From Beijerinckiaceae bacterium (GTDB lineage: Bacteria > Pseudomonadota > Alphaproteobacteria > Rhizobiales > Beijerinckiaceae), in contig CANJWR010000003.1 in the NCBI GenBank assembly GCA_947478455.1, positions 1 to 64,000 on the forward strand: 64,000 nucleotides of DNA. The letters run 5' to 3'. The position numbers were made by a program, and so were the translations under genes. Each line of letters begins with the position of its first letter. The stretch's first letter is position 1. Of the stretch, positions 10,627 through 28,363 are shown one piece after another. The notes beneath the pieces are model-generated. The model ran no database searches, was not told where the DNA came from, and worked only from the letters and a program-made list of their open reading frames with translations.

Positions 10627-12033
10627 TCACGCCAGTTCGACCGCCGGAAGCCTCAAAATCGCCCGGAGTCCTCCTGTCGGGCTATCGTCAAGCTGGAGTT
10701 TTCCCGAATAGGAGGAGGCCAGATCGTCGACGATCGAGAGGCCGAGCCCAGATCCGGGCTTTGACTCATCGAGGCGACGGCCGCGCGCCAGAGCCTCTTC
10801 TCGAAGCGCCTTGGGCAAGCCCGGACCGTCATCGTCGATGATGATTTCCAGCTCGGGCGTGCTGATTTCCCCGGATGCCGGAGGCAAAATCGACACTTCG
10901 ATGCGCACCTGTCCGGTCGCCCATTTGCCGGCATTGTCAACGAGATTGCCGACCATTTCTTCCAGATCCTGAACCTCGCCGCGAAACTTGACCGCAGCCG
11001 GGCAGGCAAGCTCAAAACCAACCGCGCGATCGCGGTAGATTTTTTCGAACGTGCGAACCATCCGCTGCATCACCGGGGCTACCTCGGCAACCGAGCCGAT
11101 TACGCTTGAGCGGGCGGCTGCGCGCGCGCGGTCGAGGTAATACGTCACCTGATCGCGCATGATGGCGGTCTGTTCGCGGACCTTTTCTGCAACGGGAGAT
11201 GGGTCAGAGCCGGCTTCATTGATCAGCACGCTGAGCGGTGTCTTCAGCGCATGGGCCAAATTTCCCACATGAGTTCTGGCGCGTTCGACGACATCGCGAT
11301 TGGAAGCGATCAGAAGATTGAGCTCACCAGCCAGCGGCGAAAGATCTTCGGGAAATGAGCCATCGATCTTTTCTTTGTCGCCACGTCGAATGGACGTCAC
11401 TTCATCCCGGAGATTTCGCAACGGCCTGAGGCCGAACCGCACCTGAAGCGCTGTAGCGCCCGCCAGCCCTATTCCGAGGAACCCAAAAGCAATCAAAAGC
11501 GCAAATTCAAAATCGACGACCTGTTTGTCGATTTCATCTACCGATCCGGCCACCTGAACCAGATAGATGCCGTCATCGCCGACATCTATCAGACGCTCGA
11601 GAATGCGAAGCCTTTTCTCGTCTGGACCACTGGCGTATCCACGGCGCAGTCCGCCCAGTTCCGGCGCGACGCCGAGGTCGGCCAGTTTCGGCAGACGCGC
11701 TGCAAAAAGGGAGCGCGACGCCTTGATCTCGGAGTTCGGCATATCAACGCGCGTGATCTGCCAATACCAGCCGGATAGCGCCAGTTCGAAACGAGGATCG
11801 CCCAACTGCCCCGGTTCGGTGCGGGTTTCGTCGCCTGGGGTGGCGACGTCAGCCACGATGGCGCGCAGATAGACACCCAGCCGGTCATCGAACGCGCGTT
11901 CGGTATTCTGCCGGTAAATGGTTGTCAGAATCAGCCCTGTCAGCAGTAGGAGCGTGATGCTCCACAATGCCGCTGAATAGAAAAGCCGCGTCGCAATCGG
12001 GGAGGATTTCAATCGACGCAGGAGCGAGATCAT
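10627..12033 (-). CDS. feuQ: Sensor histidine kinase (FeuQ-like)
   Basis: VGNLAHALKTPLSVLINE H-box, GSGLGLSIVDDLASSYSG G-box; position between the ccm/cyc block and a PepSY-type small gene resembles rhizobial feuPQ. Confidence 0.8.
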   Translation of the reverse strand: MISLLRRLKSSPIATRLFYSAALWSITLLLLTGLILTTIYRQNTERAFDDRLGVYLRAIVADVATPGDETRTEPGQLGDPRFELALSGWYWQITRVDMPNSEIKASRSLFAARLPKLADLGVAPELGGLRRGYASGPDEKRLRILERLIDVGDDGIYLVQVAGSVDEIDKQVVDFEFALLIAFGFLGIGLAGATALQVRFGLRPLRNLRDEVTSIRRGDKEKIDGSFPEDLSPLAGELNLLIASNRDVVERARTHVGNLAHALKTPLSVLINEAGSDPSPVAEKVREQTAIMRDQVTYYLDRARAAARSSVIGSVAEVAPVMQRMVRTFEKIYRDRAVGFELACPAAVKFRGEVQDLEEMVGNLVDNAGKWATGQVRIEVSILPPASGEISTPELEIIIDDDGPGLPKALREEALARGRRLDESKPGSGLGLSIVDDLASSYSGKLQLDDSPTGGLRAILRLPAVELA

Positions 12034-12746
12034 CAGCGCCTGGCGGGAGGTTTCGGGGCGTCCGCCGCGCCATCGTCATCGGGCGAAAGCAAATAGCCAA
12101 GTCCCCGAACGGTCTGGATCATGTCGACGCCGAGCTTTTTGCGCAAACGACCCACGAAAACTTCGATCGTATTGGAATCCCTATCGAAATCCTGATCATA
12201 GAGATGTTCGACGAGTTCCGTGCGGGACACTACCCGGCCCATATGGTGCATCAAATAGGCAAGCAGGCGATATTCGTGCGAAGTCAGTTTGATGGCGTTT
12301 CCGTCCACGACGACGCGGCTAGCCTTGGTGTCGAGCCGAATTGGACCGCAGGCCAGTTCATTGGTGGCGTGGCCGGTAGCGCGGCGCAGCAGTGCCCGAA
12401 GGCGAGCCAGCACTTCCTCCATATGGAAGGGCTTGGCGACATAATCATCCGCGCCCGCGTCAAAGCCCTGAACTTTGTCGCTCCAGCGATCGCGCGCGGT
12501 AAGAATCAGCACCGGCATCATGCGACCTGCCTTGCGCCATTCTTCCAGGACCGTGACGCCGTCCTTTTTCGGCAAGCCGATATCCAGCACGACCGCGTCG
12601 TAGGGTTCCGTATCTCCGAGGAAGTGCCCCTCCTCACCATCAAAGGCCTTGTCGACCGCATAGCCGGCCTGTTCCAGCGCTGTCGTCAGTTGACGATTGA
12701 GGTCCTTGTCGTCCTCCACAACCAGCAAACGCAATTTAGCCCCCAA
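12033..12746 (-). CDS. feuP: OmpR-family response regulator (FeuP-like)
   Basis: MGAKLRLLVVEDDKDLNRQLTTALEQAGYAVDKAFDG.. receiver and winged-helix domain; 1-bp overlap with kinase. Confidence 0.82.
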   Translation of the reverse strand: MGAKLRLLVVEDDKDLNRQLTTALEQAGYAVDKAFDGEEGHFLGDTEPYDAVVLDIGLPKKDGVTVLEEWRKAGRMMPVLILTARDRWSDKVQGFDAGADDYVAKPFHMEEVLARLRALLRRATGHATNELACGPIRLDTKASRVVVDGNAIKLTSHEYRLLAYLMHHMGRVVSRTELVEHLYDQDFDRDSNTIEVFVGRLRKKLGVDMIQTVRGLGYLLSPDDDGAADAPKPPARR

Positions 12747-13175: not shown

Positions 13176-13397
13176 TCAGGCAATTGGCCCCGTGGCGCGA
13201 AAACGGCCGACGACAGCGTTGACGCCCCCGAGCAATGCCGTGAGGGCGGCGCCGAAACCCGCCATATCGTTTGATTTCCAGGCCAGCAGAGCCCCGGCCC
13301 CCGATGAACCTATCACCGCCAGCGATGACCAGACGGTCTGGGACGCCCAAAAAGGCTTGGCTTCCAGGGTCGCAATGCTCGCTTTGGTCACATTCAT
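13176..13397 (-). CDS. Small membrane protein, holin-like
   Basis: 73 aa, two hydrophobic segments, KPFWASQTVWSSLAVIG motif of the KPWWxSKTxW type seen in phage holin-like proteins; AGGAG upstream; directly downstream of gp15. Confidence 0.5.
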   Translation of the reverse strand: MNVTKASIATLEAKPFWASQTVWSSLAVIGSSGAGALLAWKSNDMAGFGAALTALLGGVNAVVGRFRATGPIA

Positions 13398-13459
13398 ATT
13401 CTACTCCTGATTGGGGCGCACACGCGCCGGTTGAAGAAGCGGCCAGAACGGGCGAAACG

Positions 13460-15166
13460 TCAGCTCACCGGAATTGTGACGATCAACGGAAATCCACGCC
13501 CCACGTTCGGGCTGATCTGGTAAATTCGCAGATCAAGCGTCGTGCGAGCAGCGCCGAAGTCGGCCAGTTCATCGGCACTCGGGTAAGTCAAAGACGTCAA
13601 ATTTCCGGCCAACGTTCGAACCGGCGATCCGGCATTCATGATTTCGATTTCGTAAGCTTCGCTGGTTTCACCAATAGGAACGTCCAGCAGATCCCAGCCG
13701 TCGGCGTCGCGACGGCCGCGGCGAACAAACGAGATCACTATGCCCCCGACCTCGCGGCGGGCGGTCGCCCGAACCGGCGCATATGGCGAAAGCGCCTTTA
13801 GCCCGACTGTCGCGGCAAATTCCACACAGGCGCTGTCGGCATAGTCGCCGGCGGCCGGCCCTATGCGGTAACGAATGGTCGAACCCAGCAACGAGATGTC
13901 CGATGTCAACGAAACGACGGCCTGATCGAGCAGGATAAACCTTGAGCCCGCAGCAATGTTGCGCTCCGCCAGATGCTCCTCACCGACAACGCCGCGCACG
14001 AACTCGGACAATTTCCACGTGTGCGGCCCTATCAGGGTCGCCGTCGCGAACGAGAAGATTTCCCAATTTCCCGAAGCGTCGGAAATCGCGGCAGCATTGG
14101 CGCCGCCAAGCATTTCGATCTGGGAAACCGACGAGAGCGCCCCATAGGCTAGTCGAACCACAAGTTCCGTTGAATGATCGATGCGACCGGTGGGACCGGG
14201 AAGAAAATCCGCCAACGTCTCACCAAAAATCGCCCGGTGATCGATCGTACGCAGAAACTCGAACGACGAACTGCCGGCCGCGCGCCAGATGGCCAGAGGC
14301 CCGGTCCAAGGATCGGCGAAAGCCGCAACATGTTGCAACGCCGGCGGCTCGGATCGCGCAATCGCCAGATCCAGAATCTCCACATGAGCAGGTCCGGCGA
14401 AGGCAATCGGCGGCGCCGTATATGGTGAAAACTTTGCCGGCATCCGCTCGTAGATTGACGGTTCGATGGCGCGTGCAGAGACTTCGCGTTCGAAACCATC
14501 GGAAATTTTCTGAATGCGATACAATCGGCCCCCGCCTGCGACGGGCAGACTGACAGCGTCTCCCGGCTCAATACCAAGCAGGCCTGGACGCAAGACGCAT
14601 TGCGCGGTCTCGCGTTGAACCCAACTGTCTTCCAGAGCAATGTCGACCAGCCGCTGGGCCTGCGCGCGTTGCAGGACAATCGCCAGATCGGACTGCGACT
14701 TGCGGCGCGAAAAGCCCTCAATGCGACGCGACTGGGCAGTCGCGGTGCGATACGCGCCATCAGCGTCCCAGAAAGTCATGGCAATCTCATCCGGCAATTC
14801 CGACTCCTGCGCCCGAACGAGTTGAAACAACGAGCCATCCTTTTGTGGAACCAGATCGTCGTCCGACAGTTCCGTGACGCTCGAAGCGTCGCGCATGGAA
14901 CAGACGACTGACGCGCCTGCAGACCTGACATCGAAGCCGAACAACGATGTTAGAGGATCAATCGCCGCGCGCGGCGACATCGGCTTGTCGAGCACATAGC
15001 CGTCGACCATTCCATCAATGGCGGGAAGCGCCATATCGGCCACTTCAGATCCAAGCGCCTGAACCAGATAGTCAAGCCCGACGCTTTCCAGACGACCATT
15101 CAACCAGTGTCCGGTCTCCCAGTTTTCGACGTCGCCCCAGACCGACGATTGCGTCGGAAACGCCGG
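13460..15166 (-). pseudogene. C-terminal part of GTA gp15-like host-specificity/tail protein, separated by an in-frame TAA
   Basis: Open in the same frame from the codon after the TAA (15167-15169): PAFPTQSSVWGDVENWETGHWLNGRLESVGLDYLVQALG.. The ORF track only starts it at TTG 15103. Confidence 0.75.
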
Positions 15167-17326
15167 TTAAGGTCGCGCATCCCAGGCCCAGAGATGAATG
15201 CGCGAAACATCCACCATACGTCCCCCATACAAAGATGAAACGGGATTTGCGCCTTCGACATAGCCTCGCAACGCGGGATCGAAATGCGCGAGGAATGCTT
15301 CGAGCACGCGCGACTGGATCAGGTCATCCCGAAAGCCACGCGAGAAATGCGGCAGGCCGCCTTCCGATGATTTGGCGTCCGGAAATACATTCGGCGCATT
15401 GCCACCACGGTCGACAGCCGGACATCCGGTTTCGATCAACCAGATTGGCTTCGACGCAGGCGTCCAGGCAGTTGTGCCAGCAAGTTCGACGCCGCCCGCA
15501 CGCTCCACATGAGGATGCGACCACCAGCCGGCGAGATCCTTCGGACGAAAGATCCAAGGCTTGCCGTAAGCGTCGTCTGAAATTGGCGCTCTGTTCTGTG
15601 TTTCGCGCGCAGACGCATCTGCATAATACCAGTCGAAAGCTTCGCCGCCGGTCATCCGAGATTGAAGATATGATCGTTCATAAACCGACCGAGATGCTTC
15701 GCGATCGAGATTACCGAAACCATCGCGCCAGTCCGAAAGCGGCCAATAGGCGTCGATGCCGACGAAATCCACGCTGGACGAAGACCAGACAGCATCGAGC
15801 GGAAACCTGATCTCGTTGCCGCCATTCAGAACATGTGCGCCATATTCGGTCCAGTCGGCGGCGTAGGACATTTTTGTTCCGGCGCCGAGAATCGCTTTGC
15901 AATCTGCGGCCAGTTGAGCCAGAGCGGTCGCTGCCGGATAGAAGCCAGACGCCGAACGCACGCGCGTCAACGACGCAAGTTCCGAGCCGACCAGAAAGGC
16001 GTCGACGCCCCCGGCCTGATTGCAAAGATTTGCGCAATGGAAAATGAAACGACGAAACGACCATTCTGTCGCGGCTGGCGAGACCGAGCCAAAGAAATTC
16101 TGGATTTGTGTTGCGGCTGCGGATGAGGAATCTACCGAACCGGAAACGCCCGGCGCGGGCGAACAGGTGATCCGGCCACGCCAGGGAAAAGCCGGTTGAG
16201 AGGAAGCGCCAGTCCACGGATCGACGCGTTCGTTTCCGGCCGGAATGTCCATCATGATGAAAGGATAAAACACGACCGAAAGTCCACGCGCCTTCAAGTC
16301 GATAATCGCGTCGACGACGGATTGATCAGACGGCGTTCCACCATAAGCGGGTCGGCCGCCGGAACTGGAAACCACGCGCGCATCGAGGCGATCAAGGCCG
16401 GCGACGGACCATGATGTGTTTTGTATAAACTTGCTTTCATTTTCGACGCGCGGCGCAATCGTGCATTGCCCGGCCCGCAAATCATCGCCGAACCATGAGA
16501 CAATCAAAGCAACGCTTTCAAGGTTCGGGCAAAGCGCCTGCAAGGCGTCGAGAGAGGCTGTCCAGTCGCTGGCGCGTACAAGTTGATGACGATTTTCGCT
16601 GGAAGACAATCCAAAGCTCTTCACCTGCGTGAGCGAAGACGGCGAATAGGCAAATTCCGAAGCGCCGGGGATGAGATCGATAGCGCGAACCATCGACGCA
16701 AGGCCACCGACAGGTCTGACGACCTCGAAAGTCAGTTGCGGAACACGGTTTCCGAAATCCACCAGCGGCATGCGTTCGAACACGACATAGGCAGTTCCCC
16801 GATAGGCCGGGACGTTGCCGCTACCTTCCTTGGCGACGATCAGCGCATCAGGTTCCTGCGTTTCAACACCACGATAGATTCGGATCGTGAATTTAGTCTG
16901 GTCAATTTCCTTTCCATCCGCCCATATACGACGGACTTCAGCAATCGGACCCTCGCAAACAGCCACTGCGAAATTGGCGTAGTAGGAGAATGTCGTGGTG
17001 TTTGAGGAGCGGCCGCCACCTTTCGAGCCACTGGAGCCGGAGCGGACCGTGGTGGAGCTTTCCTCGAAACGCGTCGCCCAAATGATCTGACCGCCAACAC
17101 GTGCACGACCATAAACGCGCGCCAGCGGCGCACCTTCCGTAGACGAAATGCCCCCCAGGGACGATACCCGCGGACCCACGCGATCAGAGCCGGACGGTGC
17201 CAAAACGCTTTGATCGATTGTCGCGCCCGCTACCGCGCCCAGAGCGCGACCGAGAATTGCCCCGGCCGGTCCGCCAAAAATGCCGCCGATGACGGCGCCG
17301 GCGGTTTGAAGCACTAGCGTCGCCAT
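15167..17326 (-). CDS. GTA gp15-like tail protein, N-terminal part (TIM-barrel-like region), ends at an in-frame TAA
   Basis: Starts MATLVLQTAGAVIGGIFGGPAGAILGRALGAVAGA..; ends ..RIHLWAWDARP*; TIM-barrel-like region SVDFVGIDAYWPLSDWRDG, IWLIETGCPAVDRGGNAPNVF. Confidence 0.85.
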   Translation of the reverse strand: MATLVLQTAGAVIGGIFGGPAGAILGRALGAVAGATIDQSVLAPSGSDRVGPRVSSLGGISSTEGAPLARVYGRARVGGQIIWATRFEESSTTVRSGSSGSKGGGRSSNTTTFSYYANFAVAVCEGPIAEVRRIWADGKEIDQTKFTIRIYRGVETQEPDALIVAKEGSGNVPAYRGTAYVVFERMPLVDFGNRVPQLTFEVVRPVGGLASMVRAIDLIPGASEFAYSPSSLTQVKSFGLSSSENRHQLVRASDWTASLDALQALCPNLESVALIVSWFGDDLRAGQCTIAPRVENESKFIQNTSWSVAGLDRLDARVVSSSGGRPAYGGTPSDQSVVDAIIDLKARGLSVVFYPFIMMDIPAGNERVDPWTGASSQPAFPWRGRITCSPAPGVSGSVDSSSAAATQIQNFFGSVSPAATEWSFRRFIFHCANLCNQAGGVDAFLVGSELASLTRVRSASGFYPAATALAQLAADCKAILGAGTKMSYAADWTEYGAHVLNGGNEIRFPLDAVWSSSSVDFVGIDAYWPLSDWRDGFGNLDREASRSVYERSYLQSRMTGGEAFDWYYADASARETQNRAPISDDAYGKPWIFRPKDLAGWWSHPHVERAGGVELAGTTAWTPASKPIWLIETGCPAVDRGGNAPNVFPDAKSSEGGLPHFSRGFRDDLIQSRVLEAFLAHFDPALRGYVEGANPVSSLYGGRMVDVSRIHLWAWDARP

Positions 17327-17351: not shown

Positions 17352-17819
17352 TCAGACATTCAAATCCGGCACACCCGGAAACGCGAATGCATACGCGATA
17401 CGTCGCCGCCACCAGTGGCTGAGTGCAACTTCACAAACGGAAGAGCCATCTTGCGCATGCACCATCGCATTTGTGGAGACCGCGATGGCTACATGTTTGG
17501 CTGGAACATTGGCGCGCCACCGGAACAGCAATATGTCGCCAGCTTCAAAATCTGTCTTGCCGACAGGCCTGAAATTTCGAAAGCCGGCTTGCGCAAGACG
17601 TTCCGTCGCGCTGGCCTCCGCCCAATCTGCCGAATAAACCCCCGGGCTTTCGGGCTCCGGACCAATGAGTTCACGCCAGACGCCGCGAACAAGGCCAAGG
17701 CAGTCGCAACCAACGCCAGACAAAGACGATTGATGCAGGTATGGTGTACCGATCCAGCCTCTGGCAGCCTCCACAATGCGCTCACGCGACAGTGGGCTAA
17801 CAATTGGTTCCCTGCTCAT
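17352..17819 (-). CDS. GTA gp14-like NlpC/P60 peptidase
   Basis: GWIGTPYLHQSSLSGVGCDCLGLVRGVWRE and AKHVAIAV motifs; syntenic position. Confidence 0.87.
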   Translation of the reverse strand: MSREPIVSPLSRERIVEAARGWIGTPYLHQSSLSGVGCDCLGLVRGVWRELIGPEPESPGVYSADWAEASATERLAQAGFRNFRPVGKTDFEAGDILLFRWRANVPAKHVAIAVSTNAMVHAQDGSSVCEVALSHWWRRRIAYAFAFPGVPDLNV

Positions 17820-18706
17820 TGGAATAAGCTGCCGCCATCCATTTGCTGATCACTACGCGATGGATAGGAGGCGACCATGTCGTTTCCCGGCATATGTGGG
17901 AAGCCTCGAAAATTTGCCTGATTTGAGAACTTCGATCTACAGGCTGAAAAGGACTTGTCGCAACCGGCCGTCAGCCGGAAGGTGTCGCCGAGCTCAACCG
18001 ATTGTGCGAGCGGGACCCAGAATGTGAGCGAGTGATGCCCACTCCTCATTGTGTGCCCCTTGATCAGAGCTTGAGCGCCGGAATTCGGGCCTGACGTAAA
18101 TGTAAGAGTTCCTCCGGTGAACCAGCCAGACTCTAAGTCGCCCAGATCTGCGCGCAGATCGTGACGCGTTCCGGCAACTGCTGCCGAGGCTGTGACAGTT
18201 AGCTCCGCTGCCGCCAGCGACACTCCGCATTCCGCATCGCCTAGACTGGCGGCGCACGCAGCCTGAAACAGGCGGCCCCGAACCTGATCAAACTCGTGCG
18301 CAATCGTTCGCAGCTCAGTCGTAAATGTATTCTCGGTGCGACTGACTTCGCCAATCGTCCCTGCGTCCAACAAATGTCGTTGCGAAACATCGCTCCAGTT
18401 GACGATCCAGGTTTCAACGGATGCGCCATCATAAACTCCATTTGCCAGATCGGACTCATTGAGCGAAGCCGACGTAAGCGCTCCTGACACTTCGGCGCCG
18501 CCGACCGCCAATCCAAGCGCATTCTCTGCCTGAGTGGCGTCGAGACCAGTCGAGGCAATGAATGTACGGCCGCCGAAAAAAAGATCCCGATCATGATCAG
18601 TGAAGCCAATTGCCACGGAATCTCTCCGTGTCACGAGCCAGCATCGACACAGTGTCGTGGCCGTTCCGGCAATATGTTCGGCAAGTCCGGCTGACAGTTC
18701 GCGCAT
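17816..18706 (-). CDS. GTA gp13-like protein (DUF2163)
   Basis: LCRCWLVTRRDSVAIGFTDHDRDLFFGG..; C-terminal FRLTAGCDKSFSACRSKFSNQANFRGFPHMPGND typical of the family. Confidence 0.9.
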   Translation of the reverse strand: MRELSAGLAEHIAGTATTLCRCWLVTRRDSVAIGFTDHDRDLFFGGRTFIASTGLDATQAENALGLAVGGAEVSGALTSASLNESDLANGVYDGASVETWIVNWSDVSQRHLLDAGTIGEVSRTENTFTTELRTIAHEFDQVRGRLFQAACAASLGDAECGVSLAAAELTVTASAAVAGTRHDLRADLGDLESGWFTGGTLTFTSGPNSGAQALIKGHTMRSGHHSLTFWVPLAQSVELGDTFRLTAGCDKSFSACRSKFSNQANFRGFPHMPGNDMVASYPSRSDQQMDGGSLFQ

Positions 18707-18724: not shown

Positions 18725-19363
18725 TCAGGGAATGATTTCGACGAGGGGAATATTCGGAATTTCACCGGCCTCGAACGCTGCGAGATCGACTTCGAGATAG
18801 TCAGTGTCGAATCTCACCGGCACATCGAACCGAAAGCCTGCGGTTACCACTGCGCCTGCTGCGGGCGCATGGCCTGTTGCAAACGTCACCGCGCCGCTTG
18901 TTGTGTCGGTGGTGAAATCCACCCCTTCGGTCATTTCACCCCCCGCAACACAGACCCGTATGGAGCCCGCGACAGGCTTTGCAATCGGACGCGAATAGGG
19001 AGCCAGCGTTCCGTATGTTTTAGTCAACCGAAAGGTTCGATTGATCGCGTCGCCTTCGCCGATCAACTGATCGAAAGGTGAAGGGGCGCCATTGATGGGA
19101 GATGACGTACAATCCATGCGGTCCCGCCATCGGAAGCCATAAAGCATGCCCCGGCGCTCTTCGAAAAATGCCAGAACGGCGGAGATGGACGCCAGGGATT
19201 TAATGCCGTAGCCGGCATCGTACCGGCGGCGGGAATGAGCCCAGCGCTGGTTGCGCGTTTCCCGTCCGGACCCTGCGCTTGCCACCTGGGTCCGTCGTTC
19301 CGGGCCGCCACGCGCATGAAGCGCAACATCAAGTGGAAACAGAACTTCATGAAAGCTCGTCAT
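18725..19363 (-). CDS. GTA gp12-like protein (DUF2460)
   Basis: FHEVLFPLDVALHARGGPERRTQVASAGSGRETRNQRWAHSRRRYDAGYGIKS.. characteristic N-terminus. Confidence 0.92.
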   Translation of the reverse strand: MTSFHEVLFPLDVALHARGGPERRTQVASAGSGRETRNQRWAHSRRRYDAGYGIKSLASISAVLAFFEERRGMLYGFRWRDRMDCTSSPINGAPSPFDQLIGEGDAINRTFRLTKTYGTLAPYSRPIAKPVAGSIRVCVAGGEMTEGVDFTTDTTSGAVTFATGHAPAAGAVVTAGFRFDVPVRFDTDYLEVDLAAFEAGEIPNIPLVEIIP

Positions 19364-20470: not shown

Positions 20471-20827
20471 TCAGGCGTCCTGCGGCTTCGGAGGGAAATG
20501 GCCATCCTCCGTTGCCCCATTCATTCCAAAGGTGGCGACCAGCAGGCGAGCCGCAATATTCAAATATCCAGCCAATCCGTTATCTGACTGGAGCGAAGCA
20601 ATCTCGTCGTCGGAAAGCGTGGCGCCACCGCCTTTCAATCCGCATGAAATAATCGCCAGCAAATCGCGCGACGAAAGGCTTGCGCCTTCGAAGCGCTTTG
20701 CTATGCCGACAAGATCGCGCTCTCCGAACCGTTGCTCGAGTTCCGCTAACGCCCCGAGGGTCAGACACAACACATGTCGCTGACCGCCAAGTGTCGCTTC
20801 AATTTCACCGCGTCGCAGATTGGCCAT
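20471..20827 (-). CDS. GTA gp10-like protein (gene transfer agent family)
   Basis: MANLRRGEIEATLGGQRHVLCLTLGALAELEQRFGERDLVGIAKRFE.. typical N-terminus and position. Confidence 0.88.
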   Translation of the reverse strand: MANLRRGEIEATLGGQRHVLCLTLGALAELEQRFGERDLVGIAKRFEGASLSSRDLLAIISCGLKGGGATLSDDEIASLQSDNGLAGYLNIAARLLVATFGMNGATEDGHFPPKPQDA

Positions 20828-23386: not shown

Positions 23387-24628
23387 TCAGACAGTTCCGA
23401 ACTTGAGCAGCTTGATGGCGTCGAAATCCTGGATGCCACCGCCCACACGCTTGGTGGTGTAGAACAACACATAGGGCTTCGACGAATAGGGATCGCGCAG
23501 GATGCGAATGCCCCGACGATCAACCACCAGATAACCGCGCTGGAAGTCGCCGAAGGCGATCGAAAAGCTGTCGGCCGCAATGTCCGGCATGTCTTCAGCC
23601 TCTACCAGCGGGAAATTCAGCAGCGTCGCCGGCGCCCCGATGCTGGTCGGAGGGCACCAAAGATATTCGCCAGTGGAGGCCTTGAACTTTCGGATCGCGG
23701 CCTGCGTCTTGCGGTTCATGACAAACCGCGCATTCTGCCGATACCCGGCGCGCGTTGCGTAGACGAGATCAACCAACACATCCGACGGGTTGCTCGCCGG
23801 AAAGGCGCCGGCAGCACCGCTCACCACATAGGCGGTCTTGCCCCAACTCCAGGCTGCGGTGGTTGACTTCGTGTAGGACAAAAAGCCGGTTGGATTGTTG
23901 ACGCCATTGCCGTTGACGAAAGCTGCGCCTTCCTGCTCGGCGAAGACCGTATCGATTTCTTCGGCGATCCACTTCTCGATGTCGACCGCCGCGTCATCAA
24001 GCAGCGACTGCGTTGCTGCAGGCATCGCATAAAGCTCCATCGCCGGAAACGACATATCGGCAATCTGCTGATTGGCGCTCTGTGGACGCGCATCGGCTTC
24101 GGCAACCCAGCCAGATGCCGGACCCGACAATGAAAAGGCCTTCTTGAATGTTGCGGTCGAGATTTCCCGCACAGACGCAATCGCCCGGATCGGCGAAATA
24201 TTCGCCATGCGTCGAAGAATTTCAGCTTCAGCCGGCACCGGAACGAGATAGCCGCCATCCGGACCAGAGCCAACAGACATTGCCTTTTCTTCAATCGCGC
24301 GCAGATCGCCCGCCTCGCCGGAGCGGACATAGGAGCGGAAGGCGGCCTTGTGCTCACGCGCCTGCGGGTCGTCTGCGGACTTCGCATTCAGTTCGAGTTT
24401 CGGACGTGAACGCTCGAGAGCCTGAGCATCGATGCGACGTTTCGTTTCATCAATGGCGCGATCTATACGAGCCAGCTTTTCTTCGGTGATCACGTCGCTC
24501 GACAAGCGGCTCTCGATCTGATCGAGACGCTGATCGTTGGTTTCCTGAAACGCCGCAAATGCGCGGTGCAATGCTTCAAAGTCTCCGGCGGCTGTCTGCA
24601 CGCTCGACTTCATTTCAATGGATGTCAT
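23387..24628 (-). CDS. GTA gp5-like HK97-fold major capsid protein
   Basis: N-terminal coiled-coil scaffold-like region then ..AIEEKAMSVGSGPDGGYLVPVPAEAEILRRMANISPIRAIASVREIS.. HK97 capsid signature. Confidence 0.96.
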   Translation of the reverse strand: MTSIEMKSSVQTAAGDFEALHRAFAAFQETNDQRLDQIESRLSSDVITEEKLARIDRAIDETKRRIDAQALERSRPKLELNAKSADDPQAREHKAAFRSYVRSGEAGDLRAIEEKAMSVGSGPDGGYLVPVPAEAEILRRMANISPIRAIASVREISTATFKKAFSLSGPASGWVAEADARPQSANQQIADMSFPAMELYAMPAATQSLLDDAAVDIEKWIAEEIDTVFAEQEGAAFVNGNGVNNPTGFLSYTKSTTAAWSWGKTAYVVSGAAGAFPASNPSDVLVDLVYATRAGYRQNARFVMNRKTQAAIRKFKASTGEYLWCPPTSIGAPATLLNFPLVEAEDMPDIAADSFSIAFGDFQRGYLVVDRRGIRILRDPYSSKPYVLFYTTKRVGGGIQDFDAIKLLKFGTV

Positions 24629-25746: not shown

Positions 25747-26940
25747 TCATGTCGAAACTTTCGACTTGGCGCCGTAGCCGACAGCCTCACGCTTTTCATC
25801 GTCGGCGAGAAAGCTCGCCTTGCCTATGCGATCCCATTCGGCGGCGCGTTCGCCCGCCAGCGCATCAATGCGATCCACATTGTAGTCGAGGCGAAAACTT
25901 CCGAACGCCGGTTGCAGCCAGGCCGCGACGCTCCTTTGGGTTCTGGCCACCAGCGGAATAACTGTCTGTCGCCAGAATGCGCGCTGCGCTTCCTGATAGT
26001 TTGAATAGGTGTTGTCGCCTGGAATGCCGAGCAGCATGGGCGGAATGCCGAACGCGAGTGCAATTTCACGCGCTGCAATCGCCTTCGCCTCGACAAAATC
26101 CATGTCTTTCGGGGTCATCGACAATGCCTTCCAGTCGAGCCCGCCTTCGAGCAGGAGCGGACGGCCTGCATTGCGCGCGCCGGAAAAACTTTCGTCGAGT
26201 TCGGCTTTCAGGCGATCAAACTGTTCGTCGCTCATCGCAGCGCCACCTGCGCCTGCATAAACGAGCGCGCCGGAAGGTCTCGCGGCATTGTCGAGCAGCG
26301 CCTTGTTCCAGAAGCCCGCCGAATTGTGAATATCGAGCGCCACCTGTGCGGCCTGCAATGGCGCAAAGCCATAGTGATCGTCGAGCGGGTGAAACAGTTT
26401 CAGATGCAGGATCGGCGAGAGGCCTTCGGGACTGACCTCAAAGCGCACGCTATCAATTCCAACGGAATATTCAAAAGCCGCTGGCCAACCGTTCCGTCCC
26501 GGGATGATCGTCATGCGATCCGGTCGCAGCGAGTAGAGTTCGCGCGGTCGTTCCTCGATGCTGGCGGATTCGATATAGGCGTTGCCGAACAGAAGCAGAT
26601 TGGTGAAAACGGATTCGAGGAAAGTCGCGCCGACATCATTCGGGTTGGGGCGTTCCAGAAGGTCGAGCACCGGATGATCGACGATTTCCTCGCGTCCGTT
26701 GAACATGATCCACGGAACCGACGCGGAGGCTTCCGCAATCATTCGTACGGCGCGATAGACAATTGCGTTGCGCTCATATCCTTGACGGGTCAGTTCGGTG
26801 ACATTGCGCGACGTCCAGCGCGCCTGACCAAGCGAATGAAGCGCCATCACAGCGCCCGCGCGCGAAGATTTCCGATCGTCCGTCGAAACAACGCGTGCGC
26901 GTGTTCCACCGCCCATCAGCCTTGAGAGCAAAGAAGCCAT
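25747..26940 (-). CDS. GTA gp3-like HK97-family portal protein
   Basis: YRAVRMIAEASASVPWIMFNG..HPVLDLLERPNPN..LLLFGNAYIE..FGIPPMLLGIPGDNTYSNYQEAQRAFWRQTVIPL. Confidence 0.96.
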   Translation of the reverse strand: MASLLSRLMGGGTRARVVSTDDRKSSRAGAVMALHSLGQARWTSRNVTELTRQGYERNAIVYRAVRMIAEASASVPWIMFNGREEIVDHPVLDLLERPNPNDVGATFLESVFTNLLLFGNAYIESASIEERPRELYSLRPDRMTIIPGRNGWPAAFEYSVGIDSVRFEVSPEGLSPILHLKLFHPLDDHYGFAPLQAAQVALDIHNSAGFWNKALLDNAARPSGALVYAGAGGAAMSDEQFDRLKAELDESFSGARNAGRPLLLEGGLDWKALSMTPKDMDFVEAKAIAAREIALAFGIPPMLLGIPGDNTYSNYQEAQRAFWRQTVIPLVARTQRSVAAWLQPAFGSFRLDYNVDRIDALAGERAAEWDRIGKASFLADDEKREAVGYGAKSKVST

Positions 26941-26977: not shown

Positions 26978-28363
26978 TCAGATCTTGCGCATGCGCGGAC
27001 GCGCCGGTTCAGGCGTCAAGGCCAGCGCCGAAATGGCCCAGACGAGCGCATCCAGACGATCCGGGCTGGCGCGGCCCGGCAAGCCGTCGGGTCCGAAAGC
27101 ACACATCTCGTCTTCCAGCTTTGGAAATGCGCCAACATGGCGCACGCGATCTTGTTCGTAGAGTTGCGCAACCGGGGCAGCGCGCAGATATTTACCGCGT
27201 GTCGCCCGCACCTGTCGCACAGGCGCGCTGTCGTCAGCTTCGGCAATCACGGCGGCGACCATTTCGCCGCCCTGATTCACTTCGGCAATCAGTTCATCGG
27301 CTTCATGTCGATGATAAAGCGCCAACGCCGCGCGCGACCATGCTCCGGGGCGTGCAGCGGAAAGACTGGCGTCTTCCAGCACAAAAATGAAGCCGTCTGC
27401 ATCAACGCCCGCCGCCACAATACCGCATGAATCGGCGCGGCGATGCGAGGAGGCCGGCGGGTCGATCGCCACCACGACGCGCCTGAGTGGCGGGACTTTC
27501 TCAACCCGGCAGGCTTCCAGAAGATCGCGCGACCAGAGACCGTCGCTGCGTTCTTCCACAATGTCGCCATCGATTTCCTGACGACCCAGACGTGTTCCCG
27601 CGTAGCGCGCGACGATCCGGTCGAGAAAGATCGGCGCAAGGTTTTTCGCATTGGCGTGCGTCGACACGCGGGTCAATGCAGTCTTCGGATCGTTGACCAG
27701 ACGGCGCAGCAACGGCTGCGGACGCGGCGTCGTGGTCACCAATTGTCGCGGATGATGGCCAAGACGCAGGCCGAACTGAAGCATGTCGAATGTCTCCTGC
27801 CCATAACGCCACTTGGCCAGTTCGTCGAGCCAGGCGAATTCGAATTGCGGTCCGCGCAGACTTTCCGGATCGTCCGCCGAGAACGCATAGGCGACAGCGC
27901 CATTCGGCCATTCAAGCCTGCGGCGCGAGGGCTCCCAAACGGGGCGCTCATCGCCACGATGAACCGATAAAATGCCAGAGACGCCTTCAATCATTACATC
28001 GCGCACATCGGCGGCCGTCTCGCCGATCAAGGCGATCCGCCCGACTGGTTCAATCGCCAGTGAGGGCTCGCCCAGCGCGACAGCCTTGATCCATTCGGCG
28101 CCTGTGCGGGTCTTGCCTGCCCCGCGCCCGCCCATGATGAGCCAGACCGTCCAGGGTTCGCCGCCCTGACCGAGCAGCGGCGGCCATTGATCGTCGCGCG
28201 CCTGCAATTCCCAGCTTGCGATAACATTGTCGAGTTCTTCAGCGTTGAGGCTCTTCAGGAGCCTCGGGAGCTGGCCCAGTTCGAAGAGCTTCCTCAAGTC
28301 GGCGCGCAATGTCCGCTCGCAGTGTGGCCATGTCGCGGGCAGGTCGTTCGACTTGTCCATCAC
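26978..28363 (-). CDS. GTA gp2-like large terminase
   Basis: Walker A-like MGGRGAGKTRTGAEW; LRGPQFEFAWLDELAKW; nuclease-type VAIDPPASSHRRADSCGIVAAG. Start uncertain because it overlaps TerS by 125 bp. Confidence 0.95.
   Translation of the reverse strand: MMDKSNDLPATWPHCERTLRADLRKLFELGQLPRLLKSLNAEELDNVIASWELQARDDQWPPLLGQGGEPWTVWLIMGGRGAGKTRTGAEWIKAVALGEPSLAIEPVGRIALIGETAADVRDVMIEGVSGILSVHRGDERPVWEPSRRRLEWPNGAVAYAFSADDPESLRGPQFEFAWLDELAKWRYGQETFDMLQFGLRLGHHPRQLVTTTPRPQPLLRRLVNDPKTALTRVSTHANAKNLAPIFLDRIVARYAGTRLGRQEIDGDIVEERSDGLWSRDLLEACRVEKVPPLRRVVVAIDPPASSHRRADSCGIVAAGVDADGFIFVLEDASLSAARPGAWSRAALALYHRHEADELIAEVNQGGEMVAAVIAEADDSAPVRQVRATRGKYLRAAPVAQLYEQDRVRHVGAFPKLEDEMCAFGPDGLPGRASPDRLDALVWAISALALTPEPARPRMRKI

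Follow-up and report, generated by a model that had tools for sequence, protein, structure and literature searches.

The gp15 protein of the Rhodobacter capsulatus gene transfer agent (RcGTA), also designated Rcc01698 or the megatron (PDB 6tba and 6teh), is one uninterrupted protein of 1,304 aa. Its iris/penetration domain covers residues 1–46 and is followed by the adhesin-like (47–229), peripheral (230–744), central (745–984) and fibre-binding (985–1304) domains (PMC7296036). The central domain acts with the hub in binding the distal tail protein (PMC7296036), a few copies of gp15 per particle suffice (PMC9765227), and the release of RcGTA requires lysis genes that lie outside the main cluster and are induced by the same regulation (PMC6209664). 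The megatron of phage R4C (PDB 8gtc) belongs to the same group of homologous tail proteins. The production of a GTA kills the producing cell, and why GTAs persist and how they are lost is an open question. We analysed a 64,000-nt stretch of DNA from a Beijerinckiaceae bacterium (contig CANJWR010000003.1; hereafter the window), in which a gp15-type gene is interrupted by an in-frame stop codon.

The gp15 homologue and its surrounding cluster

The gp15 (megatron, rcc01698-type) homologue is located on the minus strand of the window at positions 13460..17326. Its frame begins with ATG at 17326, runs through 719 sense codons to a TAA at 15169–15167 (codon 720, in the context GAT GCG CGA CCT TAA CCG GCG), and then continues through 568 open codons to a TGA at 13462–13460. 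A preliminary description of this DNA had proposed a gp15 homologue interrupted by a single ochre codon and not by a frameshift. We found the sequence, frame and coordinates to be as described, with one TAA in 1,288 codons and both ORFs in the same frame, 21 codons separating the stop from TTG 15103, the first start-type codon after it. When the TAA was read as X, the resulting 1,288-aa protein contained the Pfam domains GTA_TIM (residues 422–724), Phage-tail_3 (780–943) and Rcc01698_C (1032–1131), all above their cut-offs and in the order kept by the family, and its residues 1–1285 aligned with RcGTA gp15 (PDB 6tba chain 8A) with an E value of 1.5e-282. These three domains and the full-length match confirmed the assignment to gp15. 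The gp15/megatron (Rcc01698) family is characterized by a single uninterrupted frame, which in the window fails at the TAA of codon 720, and by its sequence the gene is a disrupted member of this family.

According to the alignment with RcGTA and the domain limits given in PMC7296036, the upstream part (719 aa, 15170..17326, minus strand) corresponds to the iris, adhesin-like and peripheral (TIM-barrel-like) domains, and the downstream part (568 codons, 13463..15166, minus strand) to the central (Phage-tail_3) and fibre-binding (Rcc01698_C) domains. The break had been placed just after the TIM-barrel-like half; it does occur at the end of that domain, but codon 720 is still inside GTA_TIM (422–724), within its last few residues. 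Since codon 720 aligns with Trp735 of RcGTA and the RcGTA peripheral domain ends at residue 744, a truncated product would terminate approximately 10 residues before the peripheral domain is complete and would lack both the central and the fibre-binding domains. By inference from the functions of these domains, with a truncated gp15 the baseplate could not attach and the fibres could not be carried.

The other genes of the locus are also encoded on the minus strand. Using Pfam and comparison with relatives, we identified the large terminase (26978..28363), the portal protein (25747..26940), the major capsid protein (23387..24628), a gp10-like tail protein (Phage_TAC_11, 20471..20827), a gp12-like distal tail protein (DUF2460, 18725..19363), a gp13-like baseplate hub (17816..18706) and a gp14-like NlpC/P60 peptidase (17352..17819), all of them intact. 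The terminase, portal, capsid, small head/tail genes, gp12, gp13 and gp14 aligned to their relatives with no internal stops, and gp15 was the sole broken gene seen across 12.8–34.4 kb. Both the order of the Pfam domains and the collinear relatives reproduced the RcGTA-type arrangement of terminase, portal, capsid and tail genes followed by hub, peptidase and megatron; judged by gene content and order, the locus is the head-tail cluster of an RcGTA-type gene transfer agent. Directly 3′ of gp15 there is a small minus-strand ORF (MNVTKASIATLEAKPFWASQTVWSSLAVIGSSGAGALLAWKSNDMAGFGAALTALLGGVNAVVGRFRATGPIA, 13179–13400), approximately 60–80% conserved in relatives and containing hydrophobic stretches. 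It gave no match in Pfam or PHROGs, and its product may be a small membrane protein belonging to the GTA locus. Downstream of the cluster are genes for a response regulator and a histidine kinase (10630–12746, minus strand).

The residue at the stop position and constraint downstream of it

Alignment of 201 homologous loci, the window included, showed Phe at the stop position in 104, Tyr in 71, Trp in 20 and another residue in 5, with a stop only in the window. The suggestion that homologues carry an aromatic residue at this site was therefore correct. Since 201 loci encode the same continuous protein and 195 of them have an aromatic residue at this position, the continuity of gp15 across the TAA is not due to chance. 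The combination of a sense codon in the relatives and a stop in the window alone is that expected of a recent nonsense pseudogene. We also considered whether the two halves are normally separately initiated genes, a layout that the preliminary description had named as a possible refutation. This was ruled out, as gp15 in the relatives is one continuous ORF save for scattered disruptions at other places.

The proposed route to the stop, a one-step change of TAT or TAC to TAA, fared less well. Within the genus, nearly every genome sampled had Phe (TTT or TTC) at this position; two had Trp, one had Ser and none had Tyr, which was seen only outside the genus. Because the Phe codons are two substitutions away from TAA, a one-step change requires a Tyr codon in the direct ancestor, and this is a point against a nonsense substitution. 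The nearest full-length relatives are only approximately 60% identical in gp15, too distant to determine the ancestral codon or dN/dS, for which synonymous sites would be saturated at this protein identity; we employed a relative-rate test in place of dN/dS.

The terminal branch of the window was 0.314 for the upstream part and 0.576 for the downstream part, a ratio of 1.83, which falls within the range of 0.98–2.11 obtained for 25 relatives on a fixed topology. At columns conserved in at least 95% of 169 near-full-length homologues, the window kept the conserved residue in 39/39 cases downstream and in 120/121 upstream of the stop. Leave-one-out retention at genus-invariant columns (56/58 downstream, 162/165 upstream) was ordinary among 22 genomes. 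Relaxed selection or decay after the stop thus left no sign in the conserved columns, the branch ratio or the leave-one-out retention. These results agree with the earlier statements that the downstream half is conserved over its 568 open codons with no further stop and that the interruption is recent. With no detectable decay downstream, the stop is either very recent or not real.

The reading that we favour, with a probability of roughly 0.63, is that gp15 of this RcGTA-type cluster was inactivated by a very recent nonsense mutation that turned an aromatic codon into TAA. Translation would then end at codon 719, and the product would contain neither the central domain, which links the baseplate to the distal tail protein, nor the fibre-binding domain. 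If the cluster is expressed, the particles would be expected to be tailless or baseplate-defective and non-transducing. A gp15 null mutant would stop delivery and probably still lyse, because in RcGTA the lysis genes are separate from the main cluster; the outcome would be a broken particle rather than an escape from the cost of production. The expression "disarming the GTA", used in the preliminary description, is apt for the particle, but given the separate lysis genes of RcGTA the mutation would bring no obvious saving for the cell.

Consensus error, other gp15 disruptions, readthrough and restart

The main rival to a recent nonsense mutation is an assembly error, that is, a mistake in sequencing or in the consensus, or a variant from a minority strain; the true codon would then be a sense codon and gp15 would be intact. 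The window is part of a 4.6-Mb genome (contig C3) in 317 contigs with 92.2% completeness and 4.78% contamination, and given these values the source genome is probably a MAG. Fragmentation and contamination of this kind favour an error, as does a downstream half without any decay. A second assembly of the species was not found, and an exact-pattern scan for the same species in viral contigs gave no match. However, we detected no internal stop in carB from 149 genomes (approximately 150,000 codons) and none in rpoB from 37 genomes of the same genus, which together bound the rate of stop-creating errors at roughly 2 per 100,000 codons, the genome of the window itself (G000) being poorly sampled in this estimate. 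Moreover, if the true codon were the TTT or TTC of the relatives, reaching TAA would take two errors, and real-looking nonsense codons in gp15 also occur in named strains. We regard an error as the less probable of these two explanations.

The nonsense codons observed in other gp15 genes were TAG at codon 64 in Microvirga aerophila DSM 21344, TGA at codon 591 in M. soli R491, TAG at codon 278 in the MAG REEB77 (G178), TAG at codon 730 in IMG genome 2829791209, two nonsense codons (250 and 607) in IMG 2643221599, and TAG at codon 494, TAA at codon 943 and TAG at codon 685 in genomes G034, G067 and G149, respectively. Frame breaks were found in three genomes of the same genus (G007, G018 and G044) and in Microvirga subterranea; the four loci are L012, L018, L046 and L090, broken near residues 1018, 321, 800 and 1047. 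In the clusters of the window, G178, G067 and G149 the stop in gp15 was accompanied by no other internal stop in the compared genes, with a possible capsid frame break in G067. Three further flagged stops were discarded, one being a natural end (G025), one lying in a fragment (G028) and one not inside the alignment (G147). Among 149 genomes drawn from the order, window included, about 5 of 95 near-full-length gp15 genes contained an internal stop, compared with 0/149 for carB in the same genomes (Fisher p = 0.008; 0.02 without the window). The presence of stops in gp15 and their absence from carB and rpoB indicate that sequencing error does not suffice to explain the gp15 stops in general. Inactivation is tolerated in GTA genes, which is what a dispensable trait would show, and the independent gp15 nonsense codons in other Hyphomicrobiales point to ordinary, recurrent relaxed selection on GTA production.

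Several further features of the compared loci were noted. In genome G003 (L242), where gp15 is intact, stops aligned at residue 80 of the ORF in the protease position and close to the beginning of gp8, and the portal C-terminus occurs in a second, partial copy (15965–15750). The capsid matches of L331 (G104) and L305 (G067) lie in two frames, which may reflect a frameshift around residue 60 or 110. In a group of phage contigs from IMG/VR (L199–L204 and L206) a separate ORF of approximately 207 aa, homologous to residues 1–202 of gp15, is found immediately upstream of a full-length gp15, so that the iris/adhesin part is duplicated.

A broader proposal would be that single gp15 nonsense codons are a preferred and repeated late switch-off of the GTAs of Hyphomicrobiales, with more hits in gp15 than elsewhere in the cluster. 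If this were so, particles would still be made and cells might still lyse, nothing would be delivered, and the window would represent a fresh case. With the window left out, we counted 4 nonsense codons in approximately 121,000 codons of gp15 versus 1–2 in approximately 191,000 codons of other GTA genes, a difference that was not significant (p = 0.08–0.22); in these counts, stops close to the 5′ end of gp11 or gp7/8, or at the C-terminus of gp10 or gp14, were attributed to variation in where the genes start or end. We consider such a preference for gp15 doubtful.

Leaky or programmed readthrough of the TAA, which had been suggested earlier and which would yield some full-length gp15 and leave the GTA functional, is very improbable. 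It would be in keeping with the intact and conserved downstream half and with the requirement for only a few copies of gp15 per particle (PMC9765227), but recency accounts equally well for the conservation. Programmed readthrough is recognized by a stop conserved among relatives, and no homologue among the 201 loci shares the stop of the window. The 107 nt 3′ of the stop were not unusually structured (z = 0.11 versus shuffles), and no UAA-reading ochre-suppressor tRNA (anticodon UUA) was present among the candidates typed with ARAGORN, a set that is itself incomplete, like the genome. Since TAA ends ordinary genes in the window, it is not reassigned. Restart at TTG 15103 (15101..15103, minus strand) or at a later in-frame start, with the two pieces forming a working two-part megatron, is the least probable explanation. 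In its favour, the TTG is only 21 codons past the stop, the interruption falls close to where the peripheral and central domains meet (6tba alignment and PMC7296036), and clusters with gp15 interrupted elsewhere also exist. Against it, the TTG encodes Leu 742 within the conserved motif GHWLNGR, the GGGAG put forward as its ribosome site is part of TGG-GAG coding for a conserved Trp-Glu and at 12 nt is too far away for a good site, the next in-frame starts (codons 762–783) have no SD-like motif, no promoter-like site was found between 15000 and 15350, and no relative has gp15 split here. Judged from the sequence, neither readthrough nor restart thus has positive support from a promoter, a good ribosome site, RNA structure or a suppressor tRNA.

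Comparison with known GTA and phage systems

The window gene resembles RcGTA gp15 in its full-length homology, its domain order and its place as the last large head-tail gene, and differs in having TAA where the uninterrupted RcGTA protein has Trp735. The R4C megatron is homologous over residues 459–1285 of the query but is an uninterrupted phage tail protein of greater length (1,447 aa). The Microvirga aerophila DSM 21344, M. soli R491 and REEB77 alleles resemble that of the window in that one in-frame nonsense codon interrupts a gp15 that is full-length apart from it; their codons and positions differ (64 TAG, 591 TGA and 278 TAG), and they are therefore independent of it. A fresh inactivating codon and the independent nonsense alleles that named strains carry in gp15 would provide natural null alleles with which the spread of GTA-negative cells could be tested. 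Pseudogenised alphaproteobacterial GTA clusters have been reported as possible recent cheater lineages (PMC10883770). Like them, the window holds a GTA cluster with an inactivating mutation, but this cluster is intact apart from a single lesion at the base level, so that its inactivation is apparently very recent. In this comparison the window looks like an ordinary instance of GTA inactivation, of the kind already published as pseudogenised clusters.
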